Below, piece after piece: positions 1 to 33,422 of a DNA stretch of 33,422 nucleotides. How positions within the stretch are numbered: the first letter of the stretch is position 1; each line of letters begins with the position of its first letter. Both the position numbers and the translations under genes were made by a program. The notes below the pieces were generated by a model. It saw only the letters and a list, made by a program, of their open reading frames with translations. It searched no databases and was not told the DNA's origin. Source of the stretch: a virus; IMG/VR virus record IMGVR_UViG_3300044766_000018, positions 1-33,422 of that record, one strand, 5' to 3'.

Positions 1-393
1 TTCATCGAAGTGGATCCGGATGAGGTTCCGAACAACCGAGAAGGCAGGCGTGGACGTGTAAGTTATCCTATCACTAAGACCTTCCTAGAGTCAGGTCTGT
101 ATGTGGCCATGATGGATAGAACAGGTATTCAGCAGTCGCTTCAGTCACTCCAGAGTTGCCTGTTTTCCTACATCAGGAATCACGAACTTCCCATCAAGAT
201 GTTTACGCGTGGAGGACAGATTTACTTCATGCGTCTAGATATCGACAAGAATGGTAACCCAATGGGTGATTGGAAGGAAGAGCACGCAACTGAAGGGCGT
301 GATGGGGCCGATAGGAATGTAATTGCTATTCCTATCGACGACGCAGAGGTGGCTACTCGATTCAAGGAAGAAGAGGGTCAGGTGACTAAGTGA
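1..393 (+). CDS. Hypothetical phage protein, 5' end probably off-window
   Basis: The reading frame is open to the first base of the window. A GTG at 10 could serve as a start, but with no visible ribosome-binding site the gene more likely begins upstream and is truncated here. From the GTG it encodes 127 residues, soluble and charged, with no membrane segment or motif I recognise. Its stop codon overlaps the GTG start of the next gene (GTGA), so it is translationally coupled to the deazaguanine genes and belongs to the same operon. Function unknown. Confidence 0.6.
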   Translation, partial: FIEVDPDEVPNNREGRRGRVSYPITKTFLESGLYVAMMDRTGIQQSLQSLQSCLFSYIRNHELPIKMFTRGGQIYFMRLDIDKNGNPMGDWKEEHATEGRDGADRNVIAIPIDDAEVATRFKEEEGQVTK

Positions 394-1043
394 GTCATGT
401 TCTAGTTATATGCGCTAAGCGTTATAACGGACATGAGCTCTGGGTGGCACTTGGTGTGATGCGTCAGCGTGGGCATACTTTCGAAGTTGTATCTCAAGAC
501 ACAACTATTCGAGACGAACTCACGCTACGCCCCAATACGATCAATCGCACTGTCTGGAAAGTCGATCCTAGTGAGATGACTAACTATGATGGAGTTATGA
601 TCGTATCGGGAAACATGGCCGATACAGAAGCTTACTGGGATGACAAACATGTTCTCAGGCTCATCGAAGCCTCCAACAACTTAAGCAAAGCCGTCGCAGC
701 TATCTGCTGTTCTGTTTCTACCATTAGAACAGTAGCTGAAGGAAAGAAGGTTTCGTTCTATCCTCTAGTTAGAGCGCGTCATCGCCTAGCTTCTGCAGGA
801 GCAATTCTTCAAACAGTTGCTCTAACACGTGATGGCAATTTAGTGACAGCTGAACACCAGATGGCCTCACAAGTATGGGCTGAAGAGTATTGTAACGTTC
901 TAGAAGGGAAACCTCAGGAACATTTCTTTACTGACTCTAAGTTTGTACCAAAAGGACGTGAGCGTAAGCCTATTCCTGAACTAGAAGAGCTGAAAGAGAA
1001 GCTACGGAGGAAAGATGAACACCGCAGTAACGAAGGAGATTGA
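390..1043 (+). CDS. DJ-1/PfpI-like (class I glutamine amidotransferase fold) protein
   Basis: 217 aa from a GTG start that overlaps the previous stop (GTGA). It begins with a hydrophobic strand (SHVLVICAKRYNG) and has a GVMIVSGNMAD strand-turn typical of the DJ-1/PfpI fold. A later AAICCSV segment sits where the nucleophile-elbow cysteine of that family lies; the usual following His-Gly is absent, so activity is uncertain. The C-terminus is charged and helical. It is directly upstream of queD, overlapping it by 29 nt, which suggests a part in making or finishing a modified base, for example handling an amide or aldehyde group. That role is inferred only from position. A non-enzymatic DJ-1-like protein is an alternative. 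Confidence 0.6.
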   Translation: MSHVLVICAKRYNGHELWVALGVMRQRGHTFEVVSQDTTIRDELTLRPNTINRTVWKVDPSEMTNYDGVMIVSGNMADTEAYWDDKHVLRLIEASNNLSKAVAAICCSVSTIRTVAEGKKVSFYPLVRARHRLASAGAILQTVALTRDGNLVTAEHQMASQVWAEEYCNVLEGKPQEHFFTDSKFVPKGRERKPIPELEELKEKLRRKDEHRSNEGD

Positions 1044-1491
1044 ATTCGATGCTGGTCATCGTGTGCCTAATCATAATAGTAAGTGCCGTAATCCTCATGG
1101 GCATCGCTATAAGGTACGTGCTACTGTTGTTGGAAGCGTTCTTCAAGTAGCAGGTGATTCTTCCGAAGGAATGGTTGTTGACTTCGGAGACCTCAAGTCA
1201 GTCATGATGACTAGGATTCATGACGTTCTAGACCATGGCTTTATCGTCTACGACCTAGATGAAGTTATGAAGCAGGCGCTTAACATCCCCTTCGAGTTCG
1301 GCTACGAGAGTGAGCAAACATGGAGGGTAATCCAGCTCCCGTACGTTCCTACAGCTGAGAACCTCGCCCTATGGTGCTTCACTCAGTTGAATGACGTTCT
1401 CGATCTCGACAGATTTCATCTAGATGAAGTTACCGTGTGGGAAACTCCTACTAGTTCTGCTACGTACAACCCTCACTGGGAGAATTTGTGA
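1015..1491 (+). CDS. queD: 6-carboxy-5,6,7,8-tetrahydropterin synthase (QueD)
   Basis: 158 aa, ATG start preceded by a strong GGAGG site inside the end of the previous gene. QueD converts 7,8-dihydroneopterin triphosphate to 6-carboxytetrahydropterin, step two of 7-deazaguanine synthesis. Visible hallmarks are FDAGHR near the N-terminus (first zinc His), CRNPHGHRYKV (catalytic Cys and the two other zinc His), DFGDLK, and a late VWETPTSSATY block holding the conserved Glu. At 158 aa it is longer than typical QueD (about 120); the extra residues lie mid-protein around positions 85-110. Its TGA overlaps the GTG of queE, so the two are coupled. The family call is firm. Confidence 0.93.
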   Translation: MNTAVTKEIEFDAGHRVPNHNSKCRNPHGHRYKVRATVVGSVLQVAGDSSEGMVVDFGDLKSVMMTRIHDVLDHGFIVYDLDEVMKQALNIPFEFGYESEQTWRVIQLPYVPTAENLALWCFTQLNDVLDLDRFHLDEVTVWETPTSSATYNPHWENL

Positions 1492-2195
1492 CTCTTCGCT
1501 TGAGCGAAATCTACAGGAGCGTACAGGGTGAAGGACCCCGAGTTGGAGAGGCTACGATATTCGTTAGGTTTGCCGGATGCAACCTTCGATGCCCTAGTTG
1601 GCCTTGCGACACGCAACATGCCATCGACCCAGCAAAGTACCGACACGAGTGGCTACATCTCAACCCTAGCGCAATTGCTGAACGCATATCGTCCGTCGGA
1701 CCAGCTACAGACAATATCTGCTTCACTGGTGGGGAACCCTTCCTTCAGAACAACAAGGATCTTTCCCTTCTTGTTGAAGAGCTTATTGACAGAGACTTTA
1801 GGATTCAAGAAGTCTTTACTAACGGAACACTTCTCTTCCCTGACTGGGTCAAAGAATATCTGTACGTGGTCATGGATTGGAAACTTCCAGGATCAGGAGA
1901 AAGTTACCAAGACGCCAATCGATTCGAGAACTTTAAACGCCTCGATGGTCAGGACGCTATCAAATTCACTATTGCAGATCGAAACGATTACGATCATGCG
2001 ATCTCCATTTGGGATGCGCTCCGAGCCAGTAATAGTCGTAGAATCGACGAGGTCCCAGAGATCTTTTATGGTCCTGTTTGGGGGAAGATAGAAGCTTCAG
2101 AACTAATCAAGTGGGCTCTGGAAGATAATCGTCAGTGGCGACTCAATCTCCAGACGCATAATCTTATCTGGGACCGTACGAAACGAGGTATCTAA
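1488..2195 (+). CDS. queE: 7-carboxy-7-deazaguanine synthase (QueE), radical SAM
   Basis: 235 aa, GTG start overlapping the queD stop. QueE is a radical-SAM enzyme that rearranges 6-carboxytetrahydropterin to 7-carboxy-7-deazaguanine. The N-terminal SEIYRSVQGEGPRVG block is diagnostic of QueE, and TGGEP (residues 80-84) is the SAM-binding motif. The 4Fe-4S cysteines read C31-x3-C35-x4-C40 rather than the standard C-x3-C-x2-C: two residues are added between the second and third cysteine. The stop TAA overlaps the folE ATG (TAATG). Function is confident; the altered cluster motif is noted separately. Confidence 0.93.
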   Translation: MTLRLSEIYRSVQGEGPRVGEATIFVRFAGCNLRCPSWPCDTQHAIDPAKYRHEWLHLNPSAIAERISSVGPATDNICFTGGEPFLQNNKDLSLLVEELIDRDFRIQEVFTNGTLLFPDWVKEYLYVVMDWKLPGSGESYQDANRFENFKRLDGQDAIKFTIADRNDYDHAISIWDALRASNSRRIDEVPEIFYGPVWGKIEASELIKWALEDNRQWRLNLQTHNLIWDRTKRGI

Positions 2196-2749
2196 TGGAA
2201 GAGATGGAGTTCTACGCAGGTAATCTACTGTGCAGGTTGCCGGGGTGGGACTCCGTTGAAGAAGACCACAGAGCCGAAACGCCCAAAAGGTTTGTTGCCA
2301 TGCTCACTGAGATGTGTACACAAACAGACTACGACAAGAAGTTCAAGACATTCCCCAATCATGGCGTGGATGAAATGATTACTCTCGGACCTATTCCATT
2401 CTATACCCTCTGCGCTCACCATGTTGTTCCGTTCTATGGCAACGCCTGGATTGGCTATGTGCCGCGTGATCTGATCGCTGGCCTTTCCAAGTTTGCCAGA
2501 GTAGTTAAAGGTATTGCCAAGGGACTTTGGGTACAGGAGGAACTTACCCAAAGCATTGCCAACTACCTTGATGACGCTCTCCAGCCTCGAGGTGTTGCAG
2601 TTGTTATGAAGGCAGAGCACCTGTGCATGGCAATGAGAGGAATCGCTCAGCCAGGAGTAATCACTACTACATCGAGTATGAAGGGTGTCTTTGGTGACCA
2701 CGACCGAACCGCAAAAGCCGAATTCCTCCAGTGGATCCAGAACTCCTGA
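2195..2749 (+). CDS. folE: GTP cyclohydrolase I (FolE)
   Basis: 184 aa. It converts GTP to 7,8-dihydroneopterin triphosphate, the first step of the deazaguanine (and folate) pathway. Motifs seen are LCAHHVVPFYG (zinc Cys and His) and EHLCMAMRGI (second zinc Cys, with the M-x-x-RG signature), plus GLSKFARVV. It is slightly shorter than bacterial FolE (about 190-220), with a short N-terminus. ATG start overlaps the queE stop (TAATG). Because queD and queE adjoin it, it most likely feeds phage base modification rather than folate synthesis. Confidence 0.95.
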   Translation: MEEMEFYAGNLLCRLPGWDSVEEDHRAETPKRFVAMLTEMCTQTDYDKKFKTFPNHGVDEMITLGPIPFYTLCAHHVVPFYGNAWIGYVPRDLIAGLSKFARVVKGIAKGLWVQEELTQSIANYLDDALQPRGVAVVMKAEHLCMAMRGIAQPGVITTTSSMKGVFGDHDRTAKAEFLQWIQNS

Positions 2750-3354: not shown

Positions 3355-4103
3355 AGCTTGCTCTAATTCCTCCAATCGACATGCTGGATGATACATGTCT
3401 GACACATGTTCAGATGATGCTTCCACATCTCCTGAAGTTCCCTTTCTATGCGAACGCCTACAGGAGACTCGCACAGGATTCGACACAGTTCGTCATCATG
3501 GACAACGGTGCAGCAGAGTCTGAGACCTTCAACATGGAGGCTCTTCTCTTCAATGCAATGTCATTCAATGTCGATGAGATTGTATGTCCAGACGCATTAG
3601 GTAATGCCCTCAACACATTCGACTTGACAGGTAGGTTTATTGACCTTGCCATCAAGGAGAAGTGGACAAAAGGTCTTGGCGTCGTGGCTCAGGGTTCTAC
3701 AGTTCATGAGGCATACGATACAGCTGTCGAGATGATCGAAGCTTTCAAGGCTGTAGTGACAGCAGTTCATATCCCTCGACTACTAATCAAACCTGGTAGG
3801 TTGAGTGCGCGGCTATTTCTAGCCAAGAGGTTACACGACGAGTACCCAAATATATCCATCCATCTACTAGGCGCGTCACCCCTGTGGTGCAGTGAAATTA
3901 AAAGGGCCCCGGTCTACATCCGTAGCATGGATACCTCGATGCCCTACGTGTATGGGCGAGCGAGGTATTACGTCGATAGGCAATACGGAACTCCTCCTCC
4001 TACCCGCGGAAACGACGAAAGCTTCTTTACTAGTAAGTGGAATAGTCCTCAGTACTCTGCTTGCCAGTACAACGTGGAGACTATGCTGAAATGGTCGAAG
4101 TAA
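3351..4103 (+). CDS. dpdA: DpdA-like DNA guanine transglycosylase (inserts 7-deazaguanine into DNA)
   Basis: 250 aa from the ATG at 3351, which overlaps the preceding stop (ATGA) and follows GGAAGGGTGG. It resembles phage DpdA proteins, compact relatives of tRNA-guanine transglycosylase that exchange guanine in DNA for a 7-deazaguanine base. Landmarks are MDNGAAE (Asp51), the VCPDALGN segment (Asp81), GVVAQG (113-115 region), HLLGAS (171-176), and RSMDTSMPYVYGR, where Asp194 is the candidate covalent nucleophile matching the second TGT aspartate. I see no CxCxxC zinc site. It follows folE/queD/queE and overlaps the polymerase gene by 13 nt. Base product and target motif cannot be read here. 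Confidence 0.85.
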   Translation: MKLALIPPIDMLDDTCLTHVQMMLPHLLKFPFYANAYRRLAQDSTQFVIMDNGAAESETFNMEALLFNAMSFNVDEIVCPDALGNALNTFDLTGRFIDLAIKEKWTKGLGVVAQGSTVHEAYDTAVEMIEAFKAVVTAVHIPRLLIKPGRLSARLFLAKRLHDEYPNISIHLLGASPLWCSEIKRAPVYIRSMDTSMPYVYGRARYYVDRQYGTPPPTRGNDESFFTSKWNSPQYSACQYNVETMLKWSK

Positions 4104-6433
4104 GAAAGCACCCATACGCAGAGTGTGAAAACTGTCCGCTCAGCCGAGGAGGGGTATTCGTCCCTTCAGTTGGGAATCCCAGTGCCAAACTTGCCATCGT
4201 CGGGGAAGCCCCTGGCGTGCAGGAATCCAGAGTGGGAAGGCCGTTTGTTGGGCCATCTGGAAAACTTCTCAACATGGTACTCAAACATCACGGGATCAAG
4301 CGTTCGGAAACAATGCTCACGAATGCCTGTCTCTGTCGCCCAGCAGATGGTTCGACGCCTCCTAAAGCCGCGATTAATAGCTGTCGACCGCGACTGCTCG
4401 CCGAGCTTGATGGAATTGGGATCACAACAGCACTTGCACTCGGTAACAGTGCATCTGAAGCTCTTCTCGGGGTATCTGGTGTTACAAAACTCCGAGTTGG
4501 CCCAGGACGACCTTCAACGTATCTCCCTAACGTACATGTCATTTCCACAGTCCATCCTGCAGCGTGCCTTCGCCAAGGGGATATGTTTCCTCACCTCGTC
4601 GCTGATGTAGGAAAGATAGGAGCGTCACGTGTTCCTTGGATGCCGCCTAGTTACTTCGTCGCTGAAACTCCAGTGGAGGCACTCTACGCGATCCAGTTCC
4701 TATGGCAAAGAGAAGGACCACTTGTTGTCGACATTGAAGTCGATATTGAAAAGGACACCGCTTTCGACCACCCAAATCGGTATGGCATGCTCTGTATTGG
4801 AGTCGCATACGCCAGAAAAAGAGCATTTGTATTCGCTGACAGTTGTTTGGACGCCCAAGTTTACAGTGAACTTGGTAAGCTATTCCGACGCCGACGCATC
4901 GTCGCTCAGAATGGCAAGTTCGATCTTGCGGGCCTATTCCCAAAGCTTGGGCCTCTTGAACTCTGGTTCGACACTATGCTTGCCAGCTACGTCTTCGACG
5001 AACGGCCAGGCATCCACGGACTCAAACACCAAGCTGTCGAATATCTAGGAGCTCCACAGTATGACGACGAAATCAAGCAGTACGTTTCAGGAGGAAGGTC
5101 TTACGCCAATATTCCTCGTTCAATACTACACAGATACAACGCGTACGATGTTGTTTGCACGTATGATCTGTTCAAAATGTATGAGAGGAGATTCGCGGAA
5201 CCTGCCAATGAAGGACTTAGATCCGTCCACGATCATCTCGTTGCAGCATCCAATCAGCTCATGTTCGTCGAGCTTAACGGAATTGCAATTGATCGTGAAT
5301 ACCTCAATGTGCTTTCCAAGGATTACCTTCAAAGTATCGCAGGAATAAGAAAAGAAATTCAAACTCTAACAGATACGGAGATTAATCCAAACTCTCCTTT
5401 ACAGGTTAAGAAGCAACTACTGACCTACAGGTGTCGAGTCGAATCTACTAACGCAGATACACTTCAAGGAATTATCGAAAGGACAGCAGAACAACCTCAA
5501 TATCTGGCTCTCAATCAGTTCTGTCAACTCTTACTGAAACATCGAAGGGAGGCTAAACTGTATGGTACGTATCTCAAAGGGACAACAACCAGACTCTATC
5601 GAGGTAGAGTTTACCCCACATTCCTTCTCCACGGAACTACTACCGGACGGCTTGCATGTAGAAATCCTAATCTCCAAAACGTTCCTCGAGAATCTTCCAT
5701 TAGGAAGATTTATGTTCCTGCAAAAGATGGGAACATCTTCGTACAAGTTGACTACAGTCAGGCTGAACTTAGAGTTCTGTCCTACCTCGCCAGAGACAAA
5801 TACTTCCGAGACATTTTTAACGGAGGAGACAGAGACCTTTTCGACGAACTCACACTCGTACTCTACCCAACTGCCAACCGTAGAATTCTCTCTTCCGCGC
5901 AATGGAAAGAACTTCGAATCAGAGTCAAAGCGTACGTCTACGGACTCTCCTACGGTCGTACTGAATATAGCATCGCTGATGAATACAGTATCCCTGTCGC
6001 TGAGGCCAGAGCCGGAATGTCCGCCTTCTTCAAAGTTATTCCGGAGATTGTGGAATTTTCTAAAAAGACACGTCAATCTGTCCTAGATGGTAACTACCTA
6101 GAGACACCGTTCGGAAGACGACGTCGATTCGGTTTGATCACGGACGAGAACAAAAAAGACATCATGAACGAGGCTCTAGCATTCATGCCTCAATCAACAG
6201 CTAGTGATATGTGTCTTCAAGCGTTCACCTGGGCAAGGAAGGAGCTTCGTGGGAAGGCATTCATTCGAAACATCGTCCACGACTCTATTCTGGCCGAATG
6301 TTCACCCGATGACGCAGAAGAAGTTGCCTCCGTTATCGATGAGCTTATGGTTCGATCGGCCAAATCGATCGTGGGTGATTACGTTCTATTCGCTACGGAC
6401 TACAAGGTCGGTCACAACTGGGGAGAGGTCTAA
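4091..6433 (+). CDS. Fused family-4 uracil-DNA glycosylase / 3'-5' exonuclease / family A DNA polymerase
   Basis: 780 aa from ATG 4091. N-terminus (about 1-190) is a family-4 UDG-like domain: Cys12, Cys15, Cys82 and Cys98 fit the 4Fe-4S ligand spacing, with GEAPGVQESRVGRPFVG (38-54) and a later STVHPAAC. Next comes a DnaQ-like exonuclease: VVDIEVD (Exo I), AQNGKFDL (Exo II), YNAYDVVCTYDL (Exo III). The C-terminal half is Pol I-type: DYSQAELR (motif A), R-x3-K-x3-YG-x2-YG (motif B) and VHDSILAE (motif C). This architecture resembles SPO1-type polymerases. Tyr replaces the Phe of E. coli Pol I in the O-helix, as in T7. No 5' nuclease domain is visible. It is the replicative polymerase candidate, coupled to dpdA. 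Confidence 0.93.
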   Translation: MVEVRKHPYAECENCPLSRGGVFVPSVGNPSAKLAIVGEAPGVQESRVGRPFVGPSGKLLNMVLKHHGIKRSETMLTNACLCRPADGSTPPKAAINSCRPRLLAELDGIGITTALALGNSASEALLGVSGVTKLRVGPGRPSTYLPNVHVISTVHPAACLRQGDMFPHLVADVGKIGASRVPWMPPSYFVAETPVEALYAIQFLWQREGPLVVDIEVDIEKDTAFDHPNRYGMLCIGVAYARKRAFVFADSCLDAQVYSELGKLFRRRRIVAQNGKFDLAGLFPKLGPLELWFDTMLASYVFDERPGIHGLKHQAVEYLGAPQYDDEIKQYVSGGRSYANIPRSILHRYNAYDVVCTYDLFKMYERRFAEPANEGLRSVHDHLVAASNQLMFVELNGIAIDREYLNVLSKDYLQSIAGIRKEIQTLTDTEINPNSPLQVKKQLLTYRCRVESTNADTLQGIIERTAEQPQYLALNQFCQLLLKHRREAKLYGTYLKGTTTRLYRGRVYPTFLLHGTTTGRLACRNPNLQNVPRESSIRKIYVPAKDGNIFVQVDYSQAELRVLSYLARDKYFRDIFNGGDRDLFDELTLVLYPTANRRILSSAQWKELRIRVKAYVYGLSYGRTEYSIADEYSIPVAEARAGMSAFFKVIPEIVEFSKKTRQSVLDGNYLETPFGRRRRFGLITDENKKDIMNEALAFMPQSTASDMCLQAFTWARKELRGKAFIRNIVHDSILAECSPDDAEEVASVIDELMVRSAKSIVGDYVLFATDYKVGHNWGEV

Positions 6434-21671: not shown

Positions 21672-22262
21672 TCAGTTCTCGCGACCAGCAAAGCTGGCCT
21701 GGCGGTAAGCCTCGAAGGAATCGGGCTCAGTCAGCGAGATGTGCGACACCGCATCGGCGTAGTCCATCTTCAGATCCGTCATAGCCTTCGCGATCTTGTC
21801 GGTGAAGGTCTTGACAGCATCGCTGTCACTCTCGCCCTTGCCAGGACGAGTCCTACCCTTCTCCTTGAGCTGGACGAGGCCAGTCTCAGCAACCTTGCCA
21901 AGAATCTCAATGAGCTTGTCGCTCAGAGTCTTTGGCATCTGAACCATCGCTGCAGGAAGCTCATTGAGCATAACAGCGGGGAAGGCCCAGTCCTTGCCAG
22001 TAGACAGGCTAGCAATGCCAGTCGTGATCTCAGACAGGCGAAGTGCCGTCTGAGTCTCGGCAAGCTGCTTGGCCTGGAGAGCCTGCGTCTCCATCAGCTG
22101 CTTGATGACGGGATTGGACTCCGCCAGCTGCTTGAGAGCCTCGTCAGTCGGAGGCGTCGGGGGTGCGGGGGTCTCACGGAGCTTCTTGATCGCCGCAGTA
22201 ACATCGGCGTCAGTAGCATCCTCACGGAGACCCAGAAGCTCACGAAGAAGCTTCGGGTCCAT
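21672..22262 (-). CDS. Nested scaffolding protein from an internal start
   Basis: In-frame ATG at 22262-22260 with a perfect AGGAGGT and six-base spacing, inside the protease gene, would yield 196 aa beginning MDPKLLRELLGLREDATDADV. The product is helical: ADVTAAIKKLRETPA, Pro/Thr linker, then DEALKQLAESNPVIKQLMETQALQAKQLAE. Overlapping protease/scaffold pairs are known in lambda (C/Nu3) and Mu (I/Z). Such a strong internal site is unlikely by chance. Confidence 0.75.
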   Translation of the reverse strand: MDPKLLRELLGLREDATDADVTAAIKKLRETPAPPTPPTDEALKQLAESNPVIKQLMETQALQAKQLAETQTALRLSEITTGIASLSTGKDWAFPAVMLNELPAAMVQMPKTLSDKLIEILGKVAETGLVQLKEKGRTRPGKGESDSDAVKTFTDKIAKAMTDLKMDYADAVSHISLTEPDSFEAYRQASFAGREN

Positions 22263-22757
22263 ACTAGTACCTCCTGTGGGCTTCGGCTCCGCGAGGAGCT
22301 CAGACATATTGATCGGCAGGATGTCCTTCAGGAACGGCCTGTTAGTAATCCCACCACCGAACAGAACATCCTGGAACATCTGCTCAGACTTGGGGTGCTT
22401 CCACTCATCCACGAACTCAGGCGAGAAGTACCTGTACGCCTTGTCCTTGATCTTCTGAGCAGCAGCTTTTGTCCACTCGACAGCGAGCCAAAGACCGTCG
22501 CTACGAGCTTCTGCCTTACGAACCCAACCAGCAGCTTCTCCGGACTTGTCTTTGTGATCGTAATCGATGTCGAGATCCTGACCACGAACGTTAGCATTGA
22601 CGTTCGCCGCGAATCGCTGAACACGATCCGTCGTGATATCAATCGTTCCGTGAATCGGATGCTGGTACGTGCCAAGAGGCATTGCTTGGATCCAAGTAGT
22701 ACCTTCGTTGGACATTGTAATCCCGAACAGGTCTACCCAATAACCAGCGGTCTTCAT
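21672..22757 (-). CDS. Capsid maturation protease (Mu I-like) with C-terminal scaffold domain
   Basis: 361 aa from ATG 22757 (GGAGG five bases upstream); the frame is open to 22808 but without a comparable site. N-terminal half matches Mu I-like proteases: GTYQHPIHGTIDITTDRVQRFA, DLDIDYDHKD, GLWLAVEWTKAAAQKIKDKAYRYFSPEF and GGGITNRPFLKDILPINM. The C-terminal half (from about residue 166) is helical and Glu/Leu-rich, a scaffold. The protein trims procapsid parts. A separate scaffold start lies inside the gene. A 19-bp element lies 15 nt upstream of the ATG. Confidence 0.85.
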   Translation of the reverse strand: MKTAGYWVDLFGITMSNEGTTWIQAMPLGTYQHPIHGTIDITTDRVQRFAANVNANVRGQDLDIDYDHKDKSGEAAGWVRKAEARSDGLWLAVEWTKAAAQKIKDKAYRYFSPEFVDEWKHPKSEQMFQDVLFGGGITNRPFLKDILPINMSELLAEPKPTGGTSMDPKLLRELLGLREDATDADVTAAIKKLRETPAPPTPPTDEALKQLAESNPVIKQLMETQALQAKQLAETQTALRLSEITTGIASLSTGKDWAFPAVMLNELPAAMVQMPKTLSDKLIEILGKVAETGLVQLKEKGRTRPGKGESDSDAVKTFTDKIAKAMTDLKMDYADAVSHISLTEPDSFEAYRQASFAGREN

Positions 22758-22772: not shown

Positions 22773-22791
22773 CCTATATGGTAACTTATAC
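22773..22791 (-). promoter_or_regulatory. 19-bp element upstream of the protease gene (copy 1)
   Basis: Minus-strand GTATAAGTTACCATATAGG, 15 nt before the protease ATG. It is identical over 19 bp to the copy at 28796-28814, and spacing to the start codon is near equal. It contains TACCAT, which fits the TANNNT form of an actinobacterial -10. I cannot see a matching -35, so promoter versus other leader element is undecided. Confidence 0.6.
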
Positions 22792-22811
22792 CATGTGTTG
22801 AACGACACCTA

Positions 22812-25205
22812 CTACGATATAATGGTAATACTTCCATCAGACGTGATATACTTAAGAGGAGCTCTAGTACCTGTCACATATTTAGTATTGACAGCACTAG
22901 TAAGAGAAGGAGATGTAGACGAAGCAGTTACTACTTTAACTGCTACTGTCGCGGAAAGGCTGTATTGCTGCCAACTAAGAGTGAACACTGTTGCAATTGT
23001 ATCGCTCTTAGATACATGGAAGGCAATATCAGAAGCGGAAGCCAGATCGCCCACGGAACGTGATAGTGCTGAAACGAAGTCGATTCCTGTAGCAGAATCG
23101 CTAACAAAAATTGTAAGGAACAAGCTACTACTGTCGACAGCTGTTCCAGTATCAGAGCTTGAAACATTAGCAAAGATAGAAGCAGCTTCAATAGCAGTTG
23201 CAATATCGCTAACGACGCGACTGATAACCGAGGCAAAGTCGTTACCAATACCAAAGTCACCATCGTTAACTGAAGCAGAGACATTACTACTCTCCAATCC
23301 AGTAGCAGTATCTCCAGTGAATTGATTAACACTACTGGAAGTAACTACTTCAATTCCTACAGCAACATCTCCGACTGTTATATCTTTCCCCGCAATAGCA
23401 TCAATGCCAGTTGCAGTATCAGATACGTTGGAAACAATAGTAATGCTGGACGACTCAGGAGCAATAACCATGAAGTCAGACGCCGAGAGAGACGCCGAGG
23501 ACGTGGCATTCTCAGAGACCACAGCTGTGTCACTAACATTGATTGACACAGTCAAAGAAGCAACATCTGTAGATGTAGCAGAGTCGCTGTCGCTCTTCGA
23601 TGTTGTACTGCCAGTATCTAGACTTATGAAAGCATCTATAGCTGTTCCTGTATCGCTCAGGAACATAGTTCTGTTACCGTTAGTTGCAACGTCAGTAGCA
23701 GTTGCAGTATCAATATCTGCGATAGCTCGAACAGTTATGGCTTCAGTTGCAGTTGCTGAATCCGCGCTAGATGCTATAACCGTAACAGAGCTAACAGCAT
23801 CTGTTCCAGTAGCAGTATCTGTCGTAGTGAAAGTCTTAACAGTAATAGTATCTGAAGCAGAGGCACTATCCGTATCGCTTAGTGAAACAGCTAGGACAGT
23901 TACTGCATCAGTAGCAGTTCCAGTATCAACTGCAGACACTGGTACACCAACACTAATGGCTGTGTCTGTAGCAGTACCAGTGTCTGTAGCACTTAGCGTT
24001 GCAGCAATGGATGTAGTTTCTGTTCCTGTACCAGTTTCAGTAGTAGAACTCGTACGAACAGAAGTAGTTACTGCGTCAGTAGCTGTTCCTGTATCTGAAT
24101 CAGACTTAGGAATAACAAGTAGTGTAACAATATCTGTTGTAGTTCCAGTATCAGTAGAGCTTAACGTATTGACAGAGGTACTTACTACGTCAGTTGTAGT
24201 ACCTGTATCTGTACTCGAAAGTGTATTAGTTGAGATCGTTACAGCATCTGTTGCTATGCCAGTATCTGAATCACTCTTCGGAATAACTAGGAGAAGAACA
24301 GCATCTGTAGCAGTAGCCGTATCGGATGCAGAAAGAGTTACTACAGAGTTAGTAACAGCGTCTGTGGCTACTCCTGTATCAGTAGAAGAAGTAGTTACAG
24401 ATAGAGTAGTAGATGCGTCTGTTCCAGTTCCAGTATCTGTTGAAGAGGTAGTGACAGACAAAACAGTAGAAGCATCTGTACCTGCAGCTGTATCTGACGC
24501 AGATAGATTGCTAGAGTTGCTAGTAGGCTGGATATCGACACCGATATCTACCCACCAGTCAGATGTTGTAACTGTACGAGAAAATGCAACTGTAGCTGCA
24601 CCAACAGCATATGCCATAGCAGCGTTACCTGCACCGCTGCCGAGATCCTGATTTTTAATCCAGGCTGCAGTTTTGTTTGATGCACCAAGATCGGATCCTG
24701 CAGCAACAAGATCAACAGTCATATCGTTTGCAACTGACGTTACTGTAACCGCTGCAGTAGCTGATGCGCCAACTGCAGAAGTAGTATGCGCAGAAACTAT
24801 TGGATTAGTTTGATGTGTACCAGTAAACGATATCGAGCCGCCTTCAAGGCTCGTCATTGATGTGTTTCCAGTAATAGCAACCGAAACAGTATTAGCACCA
24901 GAAGCTGGATTAATTAAGTAGAACAGTTCAGCAAAGCCAGTGGTCTGGTCATTGCTATGACGTTTAAGAACAGACGTCATAGAAACACCATTGTATGTTA
25001 CAGATAGACTAATACTAGCATCTGTAGTAGCTGCTCCGACAGCTACACCAACAATGAGCAAACGATTCGTTCCAGTACAAGTATGAGACCATGTAGCTGG
25101 AGTAGTGGTAGTAGACTGTCCATAACCTGCAGATGAAGGACCGACTGCATCAAATACAACCGTAGGTGTAGATACAGAGGGCGCTAAGAGGGTAAGAAGT
25201 GTCAA
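22812..25205 (-). CDS. Repeat-rich virion protein with N-terminal beta-sandwich and about 26 copies of a 19-residue unit
   Basis: 797 aa, TTG start six bases after GGAGGG. Residues 1-230 form a beta-rich domain: PATWSHTCTGTNRLLIVGVAVG, SVTYNGVSMTSVLKR, FYLINPASGANTVSVAITG. This type recurs in phage and bacterial surface proteins. Residues about 232-735 are degenerate 19-residue repeats of the form S-x-T-D-T-G-T-A-T-D-A-V-T..V..L, best preserved in the N-terminal half. The last 60 residues are unrelated. Thr/Ser/Asp-rich, Lys-poor and acidic, it looks like an extended fibre or capsid/tail decoration. No enzymatic motif seen. Confidence 0.7.
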   Translation of the reverse strand: MTLLTLLAPSVSTPTVVFDAVGPSSAGYGQSTTTTPATWSHTCTGTNRLLIVGVAVGAATTDASISLSVTYNGVSMTSVLKRHSNDQTTGFAELFYLINPASGANTVSVAITGNTSMTSLEGGSISFTGTHQTNPIVSAHTTSAVGASATAAVTVTSVANDMTVDLVAAGSDLGASNKTAAWIKNQDLGSGAGNAAMAYAVGAATVAFSRTVTTSDWWVDIGVDIQPTSNSSNLSASDTAAGTDASTVLSVTTSSTDTGTGTDASTTLSVTTSSTDTGVATDAVTNSVVTLSASDTATATDAVLLLVIPKSDSDTGIATDAVTISTNTLSSTDTGTTTDVVSTSVNTLSSTDTGTTTDIVTLLVIPKSDSDTGTATDAVTTSVRTSSTTETGTGTETTSIAATLSATDTGTATDTAISVGVPVSAVDTGTATDAVTVLAVSLSDTDSASASDTITVKTFTTTDTATGTDAVSSVTVIASSADSATATEAITVRAIADIDTATATDVATNGNRTMFLSDTGTAIDAFISLDTGSTTSKSDSDSATSTDVASLTVSINVSDTAVVSENATSSASLSASDFMVIAPESSSITIVSNVSDTATGIDAIAGKDITVGDVAVGIEVVTSSSVNQFTGDTATGLESSNVSASVNDGDFGIGNDFASVISRVVSDIATAIEAASIFANVSSSDTGTAVDSSSLFLTIFVSDSATGIDFVSALSRSVGDLASASDIAFHVSKSDTIATVFTLSWQQYSLSATVAVKVVTASSTSPSLTSAVNTKYVTGTRAPLKYITSDGSITIIS
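22990..24512 (-). repeat. Coding tandem repeats, 57-bp unit
   Basis: Region coding about 26 diverged 19-residue units of the repeat protein. Units such as LSSTDTGTTTDVVSTSVNT occur almost identically side by side near 24170-24230; copies further downstream are more diverged. DNA is comparatively AT-rich (22 G/C of 60 in 24121-24180). Repeat number could vary by slippage or recombination. Boundaries approximate. Confidence 0.75.
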
Positions 25206-25220
25206 CGACTACCCTCCTTA

Positions 25221-27005
25221 TTAGCCTGCGGCAACACGCTTCAGGCCGATGTACGGGACCTGCACAACTGCGGTCGCGCCAGCAGGGAACAGGCTGGGCA
25301 TCGCCGAGGTGACACCCTGCCCGGTGAGCTGCCAGCCAGCTGCCTGCCCTGCCGAGAGATCTCCCGTCGTTGAAATCATGGGCATGTGCGGCTCGGGCCC
25401 GATCAGCCGGCGGAAGTTAGCCGCTGTTGTCCCAATAGACATGACCTTGAAGGTCAGCCAGAACAGACCCTGGTCGGGCTCCCAGACCGAGGACACGGTG
25501 AGAGTGGCGCTCGCCGTGGTGCCGCAGTTCAGGCCAGAACCACCCCATACCCCAACCTGCCGCTGAGGATATCCAGACCAGTCGACGTCGTTGTATACCG
25601 CCAGCTGCACAATGGTCGAGGCAGTAAGGACCGCCGTGCCCAGCTTGATAGCCATAGTGTCATAGCGGTCATAGGATTCGGAGATTACGAAGGGAAAGGC
25701 GAACATGTTTCCGGCAACAGCCGTGATGAACGTTGCCCCGCCATCCGTGGCCTGGCCAGTGTGCCAGCCCAGCATCACGTGCGGACGCCGGTCAGCAGCA
25801 GCAAGAATCGCGGGCGGAGCCATGCTTGCAGATCTTCCCAGCACTGTAGTCGGGACGAGCCTGCCGATAGCATCCATAATTGCATCGACCTGACGGGCAG
25901 CGCCGTACTCATTCGGGTGCAGATTGTCCGACCCGAAAAGCCCGGTAACAGGATTCAGCGCGCTTGCGCAGTCTGCAATCTGCACCATTGAATCGAACTC
26001 GGCCTGCACCTCGGTCAGAGCAGTATTCCAGGAAGCGACATCAGCATCCCGGTTCGCCTGCGTCGGCTGTGCTGTCGTCCAGGCTGTGTAGGTCGCCGTC
26101 TGCCCAGCCAGCGGGATCTGGGCGATGTTGCACACGATGACCGGCGGGGCCGCGCGGGCCTCCAGCCAGTAGCTATCGAAATCGATCTGCGGCGAGCCAG
26201 CGTCGACCGCGGTCACCGTACAGATGATCGTCTGAGTAGCCCCGGTGACCGGCGCGGTATACCGCTTCACCATGGCGATGTGCCCATTGGTCGCAGCGAC
26301 GTAGGCGCTGTTGGTGATCGGTGCGGAGGGAGTGATGTTGCTGGTCGAGAACGTGCCGGTGAGCCCGGCCGTCCCGCTGAAGGTAATCGTTCCGCCAGAG
26401 GTACCAGGCTTCCCGAGGAACCCGAGTCCGATCACCTCTCCGGCGTAGTCCGCCGGGATCGTGATCGTGATGGTCGCCGTAGTCGTCGTGGTCGCACGGC
26501 GGATCGTCCCGAGGGTAGAGGCATCCACCGCAGCCACCGATGTGAAGCCTGCCCCATAGGCAATCGAGGCATCGGTGTGCGGGCGAACCACCCCAGCCCG
26601 GGCCCGGGAGATGACCGCCCGCATGGCCTCCTTGTAAGCCGTCCGGGTCTGCGTAGTGTTGCTCATGTGACCGAGATCATTCAGGCCCCAGAGCAGTAGG
26701 GTCGCTCCTCCGAAAGCTGAGTATGGTCCAGTACGCAGCGGATTGATCTGCATCTGATGAAAGGCCGTGGTCCAGCCGCCGCCATGCATCAGCGCATTGC
26801 CGGCGGTCCCGGACCAGGTGACTTTCGAGCCATTTACCGCGCTGTTGGTCCAGTTAGACAGCGGGATCTGCAGACGGTTGCGCACCAATGCGTCTGTGCG
26901 CCCCGTCTGATCAAATGTTCCGGCGGTCACATTCAGATAGGAGTGCCCGAAGGCCCGCCACGGGTTCGGGAGCGGCTGTAAGTCCACCGGGTTATAAAGA
27001 GGCAT
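25221..27005 (-). CDS. SGNH/GDSL-type hydrolase, virion-associated (predicted glycan or capsule esterase)
   Basis: 594 aa; ATG overlaps previous stop (TAATG). The catalytic blocks of SGNH esterases are visible: AFGHSYL near residue 20 (Ser nucleophile), an N in the LLLWGLNDLGH region (Gly-x-Asn-Asp), and DNLHPNEYGA around 370 (Asp-x-x-His). A beta-sandwich module (about 170-280: TITIPADYAGEVIGLGFLG...TGTFSTSN) interrupts the hydrolase. C-terminal 200 residues are beta-rich, likely carbohydrate-binding. Probably deacetylates or cleaves esters on host surface polymers. Base composition is clearly GC-rich compared with neighbours (45 of 60 in 26101-26160), suggesting recent acquisition. Confidence 0.8.
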   Translation of the reverse strand: MPLYNPVDLQPLPNPWRAFGHSYLNVTAGTFDQTGRTDALVRNRLQIPLSNWTNSAVNGSKVTWSGTAGNALMHGGGWTTAFHQMQINPLRTGPYSAFGGATLLLWGLNDLGHMSNTTQTRTAYKEAMRAVISRARAGVVRPHTDASIAYGAGFTSVAAVDASTLGTIRRATTTTTATITITIPADYAGEVIGLGFLGKPGTSGGTITFSGTAGLTGTFSTSNITPSAPITNSAYVAATNGHIAMVKRYTAPVTGATQTIICTVTAVDAGSPQIDFDSYWLEARAAPPVIVCNIAQIPLAGQTATYTAWTTAQPTQANRDADVASWNTALTEVQAEFDSMVQIADCASALNPVTGLFGSDNLHPNEYGAARQVDAIMDAIGRLVPTTVLGRSASMAPPAILAAADRRPHVMLGWHTGQATDGGATFITAVAGNMFAFPFVISESYDRYDTMAIKLGTAVLTASTIVQLAVYNDVDWSGYPQRQVGVWGGSGLNCGTTASATLTVSSVWEPDQGLFWLTFKVMSIGTTAANFRRLIGPEPHMPMISTTGDLSAGQAAGWQLTGQGVTSAMPSLFPAGATAVVQVPYIGLKRVAAG

Positions 27006-27847
27006 TAGATCACCAGCTCTGTCACCCGGGCGAAGCCGTTCGCGGCTAACCAGATACCCCTGATCATCCCGACATACCCGAAAGGCACCTCAAGATACCC
27101 AGCTGCCGCCATCAGCACGGTGAACGCCGTGGCCGAGGCTGCGTTCGTCCCTAAGCTGACCTTCAGCGTGGAGGTGCTGTCGTTGAAAATCGTGACACCC
27201 TTCCGCAACGGGTTGGCCGCCAGCAGAAGCGTGTCCGTCGTTGCCGCCGTCACCGACGTCGGGCCGCCGCTGGTCACCGAGGATGGGCCCTGAATGAAAG
27301 CGGTCACCGAAGGTGAGAACGGCATCCCACCCGGCTGAATCACAATCGTCAGGCCGTTGGTCGCTGGCGCAGTCGTGCACCGGACACGTACCCAGTTCAC
27401 GCCCTCAAGGGCCGCATCAAACATCAGCTCAGCGTTTGCTGCCCCTACCCCAAGAGTGAAGGTGCTGGCGGAAATGCTCGTGTCCGAGCGCGTCACGCCC
27501 AGCGGCGCCCAGCTGGTCGAGTCGTCCGATTGCTCGAACACCAGCACCGGTGCGCCCGCCCAGGCACTCGCCGCCGCCGTATTCTTGACAATAAAGGTGG
27601 CGTTGCCAGCTTTCGAGACATCCAGCGCCGCGGTGTTCGCCGGGGTCGCTACAACGATCGCAGTCGATGAACCAGTAATCGTCTGGCCAACCGCGGACAC
27701 AGGCAACGGGGTGCCAGCATTCACGTCGGTAGCAACACCATCAACGCCCCACGTCGCTTTAACACGCTGGTACTTAACGCCGGAGAGATCATCGGATGCG
27801 ATGACATCTCCACCCGCCATCGCATTGAGCGTTGTATTATCAGCCAT
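27005..27847 (-). CDS. Virion-accessory protein, conserved N-terminus, GC-rich body
   Basis: 280 aa. N-terminus MADNTTLNAMAGGDVIASDDLSGVKYQRVKAT is a recurring opening of phage structural proteins. Middle and C-terminus are beta-rich: AASAWAGAPVLVFEQSDDSTSW, LRKGVTIFNDSTSTLKVSLG, YLEVPFGYVGMIRGIWLAANGFARVTEL. No catalytic motif. Directly upstream of and overlapping the SGNH gene, it may anchor that enzyme to the particle. Composition is moderate at the N-terminal end and turns GC-rich from about 27700 downwards. Role inferred from context. Confidence 0.65.
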   Translation of the reverse strand: MADNTTLNAMAGGDVIASDDLSGVKYQRVKATWGVDGVATDVNAGTPLPVSAVGQTITGSSTAIVVATPANTAALDVSKAGNATFIVKNTAAASAWAGAPVLVFEQSDDSTSWAPLGVTRSDTSISASTFTLGVGAANAELMFDAALEGVNWVRVRCTTAPATNGLTIVIQPGGMPFSPSVTAFIQGPSSVTSGGPTSVTAATTDTLLLAANPLRKGVTIFNDSTSTLKVSLGTNAASATAFTVLMAAAGYLEVPFGYVGMIRGIWLAANGFARVTELVI

Positions 27848-27856
27848 GGTATGTCC

Positions 27857-28444
27857 TTAGCTGATTGTGATAGTAACCGTGAGAGCCCAGCTAGAACCAG
27901 AAGCCTTCGTACCAAGAGCTGCCGAAGTCTTGTGGTTGAGAAGAGTAGCATTGACAGTAGCAGAAGATGAAACAGTGGGTGTTCCGATGTCGAGGCCCCA
28001 CTCGTTCCATGCGTAGTTCCCATCAGCAGATGCAAACGTCGACTTCGCAGTCAGAACGTTAGTCGCAACGCTCGGGAACGTAGCATCCATAATATTGAAC
28101 CAACGGTTCGCAGAGCCAGCAGCTGCGCCAAGATCGGTGTCGCCAATTGCGGCAGAACCAGCACCGTTACCAGTACCAAGACGAGTTGCTGTGTTCGTAG
28201 CAGCCTGGCCACCGGTAGCGTTCAGAAGAGCCATCAGACGAGTCAGGCCAGCAGTCGTTAGAAGGTTGTCTTCACGCTCAATAGTACCATCTTCAGGTAC
28301 TATCCGGTGCGCAATGAAAGCTGAGTGCTGAGGCCTACGGAGACCCGTACGTCGACACACCCAGAGAGTCTGATCGGTAGAGAACTTATCTACCTTGGCA
28401 TGAGCCTTCCACGTGGCACGCTCTCGAGCAATTACAGCTGTCAT
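27857..28444 (-). CDS. Structural-like protein of the accessory cassette, 195 aa
   Basis: ATG overlaps the previous stop (ATGA). Begins MTAVIARERATWKAHAKVDKF, followed by REDNLLTTAGLTRLMALLNATGG and WNEWGLDIGTPT and a strand-rich Thr/Ser C-terminus. The NLLTTAG...NEWGL arrangement is common in phage tail-fibre or baseplate accessory proteins. Function uncertain; probably part of the particle. Ordinary base composition, unlike its downstream neighbours. Confidence 0.6.
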   Translation of the reverse strand: MTAVIARERATWKAHAKVDKFSTDQTLWVCRRTGLRRPQHSAFIAHRIVPEDGTIEREDNLLTTAGLTRLMALLNATGGQAATNTATRLGTGNGAGSAAIGDTDLGAAAGSANRWFNIMDATFPSVATNVLTAKSTFASADGNYAWNEWGLDIGTPTVSSSATVNATLLNHKTSAALGTKASGSSWALTVTITIS

Positions 28445-28779
28445 CGTTGAACCCTTACCTCTCCCGAGAGAATGACGTATCGTTTCGTACTATTCACATA
28501 TACGAGTCGGAAGTCAGCCTTAGACCAAGTGACTGTCGACTGCGCTTGTGTAATAGAGAACGTTACCTGATTGGTAGATCCAACAACTACGCCAGTAATA
28601 ACTAGCCCAGCTGTAGTAGGTTGATCGATCTCTAGTGTAACAGTAGTGCTAGCCAAGTTGGAAGGAATAGTGTTAGCAGCATCGTCCCAAAAGTAAACGC
28701 TGAAGTCCTGTTGAGAGTTGTACTTCAAATTCATAATACCACTCTGAAGTACCTGACCTAGTACTAGGGCTGCTGTCAT
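28441..28779 (-). CDS. LtfC/p132/Gp6-like beta-sandwich protein
   Basis: 112 aa, SD GAGGGGAGGG close to ATG. Beta-rich: QDFSVYFWDDAANTIPSNLASTTVTLEID, GLVITGVVVGSTNQVTFSI, DFRLVYVNSTKRYVILSGEVRV. This resembles the small LtfC/p132/Gp6 beta-sandwich domain of actinobacteriophages (adsorption or fibre-attachment proteins). It is the first gene of the accessory cassette and starts 16 nt after the 19-bp element. Confidence 0.6.
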   Translation of the reverse strand: MTAALVLGQVLQSGIMNLKYNSQQDFSVYFWDDAANTIPSNLASTTVTLEIDQPTTAGLVITGVVVGSTNQVTFSITQAQSTVTWSKADFRLVYVNSTKRYVILSGEVRVQR

Positions 28780-28795
28780 CGTCCCTCCCCTCTTA

Positions 28796-28814
28796 CCTAT
28801 ATGGTAACTTATAC
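28796..28814 (-). promoter_or_regulatory. 19-bp element upstream of the accessory cassette (copy 2)
   Basis: Minus-strand GTATAAGTTACCATATAGG, 16 nt before the ATG at 28779 in a 68-bp gap. It is identical to copy 1 at 22773-22791 while flanking bases differ. As with copy 1, TACCAT could be a -10. The two copies mark both ends of the cassette. Confidence 0.6.
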
Positions 28815-28847
28815 ACTAGCGTGACTGCCACCCATGTTGATATCTTG

Positions 28848-29195
28848 TTAACGAAACCAAGAGCGACGTTGTTTCGCTACGTGATCTTCAAGATGGTGGT
28901 CTAGTCTTCGATGCAAGTCCACTTGCGATTCTTTCACTGTACGCATACTGTCTTGAACATCTTTCATATCCAATTTGACATTATGCATCTCAGATAAAAC
29001 TTCTGACAACATCCTCTTAACACTATCCGCAAAACCATTAGCTATAGGAGCTGTCTGCTTTATAATCTCGTCCTGTTTCTTAGTCGACTCTTCCCGACCT
29101 GACTTAGCAGTACGCCGCACAACTTCAACCCATACGCCTAGAAGACCAGTAGTTACTGCAGATACAACTCCCCAAGCTTCTGGAGACAAGTCCAT
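28848..29195 (-). CDS. Membrane-anchored coiled-coil protein
   Basis: 115 aa; ATG overlaps the portal stop (TAATG). One N-terminal hydrophobic segment (AWGVVSAVTTGLLGVWVEVV, about 6-26), followed by a basic stretch (RRTAKSGREESTKK) and a long coiled coil (MLSEVLSEMHNVKLDMKDVQDSMRTVKES...). It is reminiscent of small phage membrane proteins such as DUF2746 or a second holin/antiholin, but located far from the lysis cassette, between portal and accessory genes. Function unknown. Confidence 0.6.
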   Translation of the reverse strand: MDLSPEAWGVVSAVTTGLLGVWVEVVRRTAKSGREESTKKQDEIIKQTAPIANGFADSVKRMLSEVLSEMHNVKLDMKDVQDSMRTVKESQVDLHRRLDHHLEDHVAKQRRSWFR

Positions 29196-33013: not shown

Positions 33014-33343
33014 CTAGTTGTTGGCGTGAACCTCTGCAGCCTTCTGCATGTTCTTGATCATCAGGTCCAGAGGAGAATCCTTGCCGACGTTGACATCTTC
33101 GCCAACACGCCCAAGAACTCTATCCGTCACATACATAGCAGCAGCCAGTCTTACGCGCTCATTGGAGCCGTAGAGCGCAATATGAACAACGGAAGTAGCA
33201 GCTGCTGGTGCGTTCTCGTGGTAGATCCGCCTTGCAGTCTCCGCCAAAGACTCTTCTGGATGGAAACTACGATCCATGTTGAGCGCCTCAACAGCCTCGT
33301 CTGGCAGCCAGTCTGGGCTATTGCGTGGGTCATCTTCGCGCAT
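33014..33343 (-). CDS. Putative terminase small subunit-like protein
   Basis: 109 aa; ATG four bases after GGAAGGAGGTGCGTA. WLPDEAVEALNMDRSFHPEESLAETARRIYHENAPAAATSVVHIALYGSNERVRLAAAMYVTDRVLGR is a helical pattern; the last part (ERVRLxAAxYVxDRVLGR) is typical of small terminase-like proteins of actinobacteriophages. First gene of the late operon. The function is suggested by this motif and position, not proven. Confidence 0.55.
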   Translation of the reverse strand: MREDDPRNSPDWLPDEAVEALNMDRSFHPEESLAETARRIYHENAPAAATSVVHIALYGSNERVRLAAAMYVTDRVLGRVGEDVNVGKDSPLDLMIKNMQKAAEVHANN

Positions 33344-33357
33344 TACGCACCTCCTTC

Positions 33358-33376
33358 CCTCTATTGTAGATGATAC
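33358..33376 (-). promoter_or_regulatory. Diverged copy of the 19-bp element before the first late gene (copy 3)
   Basis: Minus-strand GTATCATCTACAATAGAGG matches the 19-bp element at 14 of 19 positions and ends 14 nt before the ATG at 33343. TACAAT (5 of 6 to TATAAT) occupies the place of TACCAT in the other copies and fits a -10 for the late operon. ATGAT/ATCAT (33370-33374, 33380-33384) forms a short inverted repeat over its upstream side, a possible operator. Confidence 0.55.
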
Positions 33377-33422
33377 AACATCATGAACGCACCCTTTTGT
33401 CTATTCAGGTAACACATGATAG

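Follow-up and report, generated by a model that had tools for sequence, protein, structure and literature searches.

The stretch of DNA analysed here, referred to as the window, comprises the 33,422 nucleotides of the IMG/VR virus record IMGVR_UViG_3300044766_000018. This record is a 33.4-kb linear fragment, and most of the early region is therefore missing from it. The late genes are all located on the minus strand, in the order TerS-like gene, large terminase, portal, cargo genes, Mu-like protease, major head protein, and tail genes. The large terminase was assigned by tblastn to annotated terminases, and the portal matches Portal_Mu and the portal barrel of P23-45. Genes relevant to the analysis are the following:

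33014..33343, minus strand: first late gene, 109 aa, terminase small subunit-like (TerS-like); weak match to phrog_2538 (E 4e-4), orthologues in all 21 long contigs
28441..28779, minus strand: 112-aa first cargo gene behind putative promoter 2; phrog_1084, unknown function
22812..28779, minus strand: cargo genes between portal and protease, for proteins of 112, 195, 280, 594 (GDSL-like), and 797 aa (weak minor-tail match)
21672..22757, minus strand: head maturation protease (Mu-like I protein), 361 aa; PF10123 (E 6.8e-32) and phrog_328; first gene of the capsid/tail unit
2195-2749, plus strand: GTP cyclohydrolase I (FolE-like)
1488-2195, plus strand: radical-SAM QueE-like
1015-1491, plus strand: QueD-like; homology to a protein of the same cluster in the relative G001
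390-1043, plus strand: DJ-1/PfpI protein

An earlier note on this DNA had described the 112-aa protein as LtfC-like, for which no support was obtained from Pfam or PHROGs. In the gene for the 797-aa protein (22812-25205, minus strand), numerous short, degenerate repeats can be recognized at the DNA level, and the protein has a weak minor tail match. At the end opposite the late start, a DNA polymerase A with an N-terminal uracil-DNA glycosylase superfamily domain (PF03167, E 2.8e-26) is encoded (4061-6433, plus strand). The region from 390 to 2749 (plus strand) harbors 7-deazaguanine (preQ0-type) pathway genes, a set which suggests that the phage DNA may be modified. Searching genome contigs for a host yielded 'Bacterium UASB270' as the sole match; a distant similarity to actinophages suggests that the host may be an actinobacterium.

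Two identical 19-bp elements had been noted ahead of the protease gene and the 112-aa gene, and a third version ahead of the first late gene. The exact copies are indeed present at 22773-22791 and 28796-28814, both on the minus strand, and the third element, matching at 14 of 19 positions, is located at 33358-33376 before the TerS-like gene. Their distances to the start codons are 15 nt (ATG at 22757), 16 nt (ATG at 28779), and 14 nt (ATG at 33343), as had been stated. Further copies with up to three mismatches were not detected elsewhere in the record. In 33 kb, chance alone would produce about 0.004 pairs of exact 19-mer repeats, and none of 100 shuffled controls gave any match. The exact 19-mer was not found in a scan across IMG/VR, from which the record of the window itself was possibly excluded.

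A bipartite motif upstream of late genes

For comparison, IMG/VR was scanned with the large terminase, yielding 80 loci with 51-74% identity. Twenty relative contigs of 45-92 kb were read whole; together with the window record, 21 records were available. The relatives have the gene order and most virion genes in common with the window. Among named phages, the closest have terminases with only 31-35% identity. An unsupervised search for one motif was performed with 93 non-redundant regions upstream of the orthologues of the protease gene and the first late gene, aligned at the start codon and without any information on -10 sequences. The top motif, GTTACT.TTATATA, is located about 68-75 nt before many protease starts, and its log-likelihood was 173.9 compared to 43-53 in six dinucleotide-preserving shuffled sets. 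Its consensus is tGTTACYnTnATATMc, which is partly AT-rich. The corresponding regular expression was absent upstream of capsid and portal genes.

The position of this box relative to -10-like sequences is nearly fixed. In 22 of 26 boxes, the best -10-like hexamer follows 45-47 nt downstream of the box start (about 3e-25 under uniform placement). An alignment of 24 sites, with a near-fixed spacing of 46 nt, showed the A and C of GTTAC to be invariant (24/24), T at the last -10 position in all sites, and, 24 nt ahead of the -10 hexamer, a weak TKG in the place of a -35. In the window, each 19-bp element is likewise accompanied by a second conserved box starting 45-46 nt upstream of the -10-like hexamer, so that the flanks, previously regarded as unrelated, are not. 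The 19-mer is not the whole signal; it constitutes the -10 half of a longer bipartite motif and corresponds to the -10 region of the predicted promoter, reading GTATAAGT[TACCAT]ATAGG.

A bipartite scan was then carried out in a leave-genome-out manner, each genome being excluded from its own model. In the window exactly three matches were obtained, which are the three elements described above, at a null rate of 0.45 matches per Mb-strand or about 0.03 false matches expected for the window. The putative sites are:

33363..33368, minus strand: late promoter 1, -10-like hexamer TACAAT before the TerS-like gene, within the third element (33358-33376); score 24.9
33400..33413, minus strand: late promoter 1, upstream box GTTACCTGAATAGA, from the bipartite scan
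28801..28806, minus strand: late promoter 2, -10-like hexamer TACCAT, within the exact copy at 28796-28814; score 14.6, lowest of the three
28839..28852, minus strand: late promoter 2, upstream box GTTAACAAGATATC, degenerate, with the invariant C missing; overlaps the 3' end of a 115-aa gene
22778..22783, minus strand: late promoter 3, -10-like hexamer TACCAT, within the exact copy at 22773-22791; score 17.6
22816..22829, minus strand: late promoter 3, upstream box ATTACCATTATATC, overlaps the 3' end of the 797-aa gene

Each of the three sites precedes a virion gene or a cargo gene encoded on the late strand. Promoter 2, before the 112-aa gene, is the least secure of the three: its score is below the top null value of 15.6 (null over 4.5 Mb) and its box lacks the invariant C, even though in the -10 half it matches the protease promoter exactly. 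The 19/19 identity of the two exact copies is more than the family motif requires, a point against the promoter reading.

In the other loci, 36 matches were located on the late strand and one on the opposite strand, numbers that are not all independent because a few loci are near-duplicates. Scanning all of IMG/VR with a strict pattern returned 28 stretches. Those encoding this phage family (L161, L165, L176, L177, and L182) have the match upstream of TerS or the protease gene; the remaining ones look like AT-rich chance matches. The motif search in genome and relatives, proposed earlier as a check, places the motif at the three sites and, at similar distance from the start codon, before orthologous genes. 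In about half of the 20 long contigs from relatives, the portal-protease interval has no clear canonical box, and some of these contigs have GTTAC-type variants instead. Around the terminases of Wollypog, Shrew, Huwbert, Kurnik, and Krampus, the best scores were 1.4-10 and no promoter was detected. The putative late-promoter architecture is defined for a conserved group of uncultured phages; the late regions examined in these five named isolates did not show it. Searches of open-licence literature returned no account of the element.

The earlier note had also considered a start-associated signal. Short repeats directly upstream of start codons are known from cluster K mycobacteriophages as SAS/ESAS (PMC3203893), and a translational element of this kind would account for the constant 14-16 nt to the start codon and for the adjoining Shine-Dalgarno sequence. 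Conservation, however, reaches about 70 nt upstream of the start, where the box overlaps the preceding gene, and since this is the better conserved half, a purely translational role is unlikely. The cluster K SAS is a 13-bp sequence, GGGATAGGAGCCC, that occurs 11-19 times within the non-structural genome half (PMC3203893), whereas three sites of another sequence are found here; sequence, copy number, gene set, and upstream partner all differ. Overall, a translational start-associated sequence is considered highly improbable.

Diverging elements were also observed. The contigs G014, G015, G016, and G020 and the locus L064 contain variant upstream boxes, for example GTTACnGTAAC and GTTACATAAGTAAC, several at the same distance to the -10 hexamer and some before early-strand genes; they possibly reflect a diverged recognition specificity. 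In L026, L028-L030, and L082, a TAAGCTATCATATAGGAA element with four mismatches to the 19-mer is located about 56 nt before the first late gene and is preceded by TTGCGT 18 nt upstream of its -10, which possibly represents a different promoter type with a common -10 region.

Proposed late promoters and candidate activators

A -10 sequence of the type TANNNT (TACAAT or TACCAT) is present at suitable distance from the gene start at all three sites. A -35 hexamer TTGACA at 16-18 nt is lacking, the -35 position showing only the weak TKG. A standard sigma70 consensus scan detected no promoter at any of the three sites. RNA polymerases of the T7 type (RNA_pol family) were not detected in the 21 records, i.e., the fragmentary window record and the relatives of 45-92 kb, while T7 as positive control was found. 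A phage sigma factor was rejected, since sigma70 region 2 (PF04542) was absent from the same 21 records with positive controls. As neither a phage RNA polymerase nor a phage sigma factor was found, host RNA polymerase together with a phage activator is the simplest reading. The 19-mers are fairly likely to be the -10 regions of three late promoters served by host sigma70-type RNA polymerase and a phage-encoded activator, which probably switches on the virion genes. This reading is based on conservation, rigid spacing, strand, gene context, and the lack of a recognizable phage polymerase or sigma factor; from these we infer promoter activity, late timing, the start site, and the existence and identity of the activator.

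In the proposed arrangement, the upstream box (tGTTACYnTnATATMc) would be located at about -58 to -44, followed by the weak -35 (TKG) and a -10 that is mostly TANNNT, in the window TACCAT or TACAAT. The predicted transcription start is about 12-20 nt ahead of the start codon. Promoter 1 would serve TerS, terminase, and portal, the extra promoter 2 the cargo genes, and promoter 3 protease, capsid, and tail genes. A promoter that is specific to the phage lineage and splits the late operon in three, much as had been proposed before, is supported by the motif at exactly three places and by its presence before orthologous genes in relatives; the 19-mer alone as the signal and cassette exchange were not sustained.

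Other modes of recognition were considered. UP elements, the sites of the alpha-CTD, lie at about -58 to -44. The box has this position and is partly AT-rich, and the -10 with a weak -35 would be compatible with a host sigma factor, so that the sites could be strong, factor-independent host promoters. The invariant A and C of GTTAC and the near-fixed 46-nt spacing suggest base-specific recognition instead, and the sigma70 scan was negative at all three places; UP elements are an unlikely explanation. Taking the box as an independent -10 of tandem promoters is at odds with the fixed 46-nt spacing and with the absence of a conserved -35 ahead of it, and this reading was rejected. The T7 promoter consensus is TAATACGACTCACTATAGGGAGA. 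To the eye, GTATAAGTTACCATATAGGAAGA resembles it, and ATATAGGAAG resembles its start, which could indicate promoters of a phage single-subunit polymerase. Besides the negative search for such enzymes, G001 is without an unassigned early ORF of suitable size, and what the relatives conserve is the -10 hexamer and the distant upstream box, not a T7-like 23-mer. T7-like promoters are hardly credible and strongly disfavoured.

With an activator and host RNA polymerase, the promoters would most closely resemble, in how they work, the activator-dependent late promoters of phages such as P2. In P2, 186, and P4, late promoters have an activator site near -55. As in these Ogr-Delta systems, separate virion operons would be driven by a small number of promoters, each preceded by a putative activator site. 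Ogr is a CX2CX22CX4C zinc protein (PMC3931495), and the relatives here encode a conserved CX2C...CX4C zinc ribbon. The systems differ in the box, tGTTACYnTnATATMc here and TGT-N12-ACA in P2. When this dyad was looked for in the 24-site alignment, TGT was frequent at the left, but no conserved ACA was seen at the right. The lineage is unrelated, the zinc ribbon is a sub-threshold Ogr_Delta match, and an adjoining winged-helix protein is an equally good candidate. In T4 middle promoters (MotA box and AsiA), phage factors redirect host RNA polymerase to a -10 and a phage-specific upstream box (PMC7403470). The MotA box replaces the -35, whereas here the box is further upstream and a weak -35 is retained; among the early proteins of G001, no relative of AsiA or MotA was noticed. 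In Thermus phage P23-45, whose portal barrel the window portal matches, middle and late promoters are read by host RNA polymerase without reliance on a -35 (PMC7403470), which parallels the proposal made here. Unlike the present sites, they are extended -10 promoters with gp39, and the corresponding passage of PMC7403470 does not mention a distal box.

Two adjoining early-region genes outside the window, for a winged-helix protein and a zinc ribbon, are kept in all 20 long relative contigs and are weak candidates for the activator. The winged-helix protein has a conserved RGGG wing and a C-terminal coiled coil; the fold is predicted with a mean pLDDT of 88, and generic winged-helix matches have E values above 1e-3. 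The zinc ribbon has the cysteine pattern CX2C...CX4C. The gene in G006, G010, and G012 gave a sub-threshold match to Ogr_Delta (E 4e-4 to 2e-3), and profile-profile alignment with Ogr (hhalign) a probability of 49% (E 1.7e-4), a likeness that may serve as a lead and does not denote membership. A fold search of the zinc ribbon against PDB gave no useful match, and no clear co-variation of wing residues with box variants was apparent by eye. Since relatives lacking the canonical box have both genes as well, gene content singles out neither, and neither is demonstrated. Tentatively, and with considerable doubt, the winged-helix protein and/or the Ogr-like zinc ribbon might recognize GTTACYnTnATATM at a fixed distance upstream of the -10 and recruit host RNA polymerase, which would be a strategy resembling that of Ogr in phages not related to P2. 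The 19-bp repeat has in this way led to a testable model with named candidate activators.

Two other sources of an activator were discarded. WhiB as general activator was rejected because a WhiB-type Cys motif is present in G017 only, and the G001 match covers just the C-terminal end of the model. Genes restricted to box-positive relatives came down to a single family, present in four genomes, in which inspection by eye revealed no clear DNA-binding feature.

The cargo slot between portal and protease

In the relatives, the portal-protease interval varies from 79 to 6441 bp and contains differing cargo. As judged by sequence comparison, it is a variable cargo slot, and the variability is real. 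For most cargo genes of the window, the other loci contain no homologue; the exceptions are the 112-aa and the 594-aa genes, each with one in G001. Where present, the canonical site is mostly at the protease end of the slot, no more than about 400 bp from the protease match. A promoter at this end suggests how head genes could stay expressed despite 0-6 kb of cargo inserted ahead of them. Only the window has a clear promoter site at both edges of the slot, and most simply, the middle promoter (promoter 2) would give the cargo its own late transcription.

The hypervariable slot and the many cargo genes without homologue are also what would be expected if the identical short repeats were recombination sites exchanging the 6-kb cassette, as the earlier note had suggested. 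Yet the cargo varies among relatives that have the site at one edge only, and no relative with the element at both edges was found. In the window, just 19 bp are common to both places, the spacers and upstream boxes being different, and the GC profile of the cassette is a mosaic with steps near 25.2 and 27.8 kb, away from the repeats. Exchange through the repeats is therefore unsupported and very unlikely. Between these steps, a block of 60-65% GC (25221-27850) amid 43-53% GC spans the genes for the GDSL-like 594-aa and the 280-aa proteins and looks as if it had been acquired from elsewhere.
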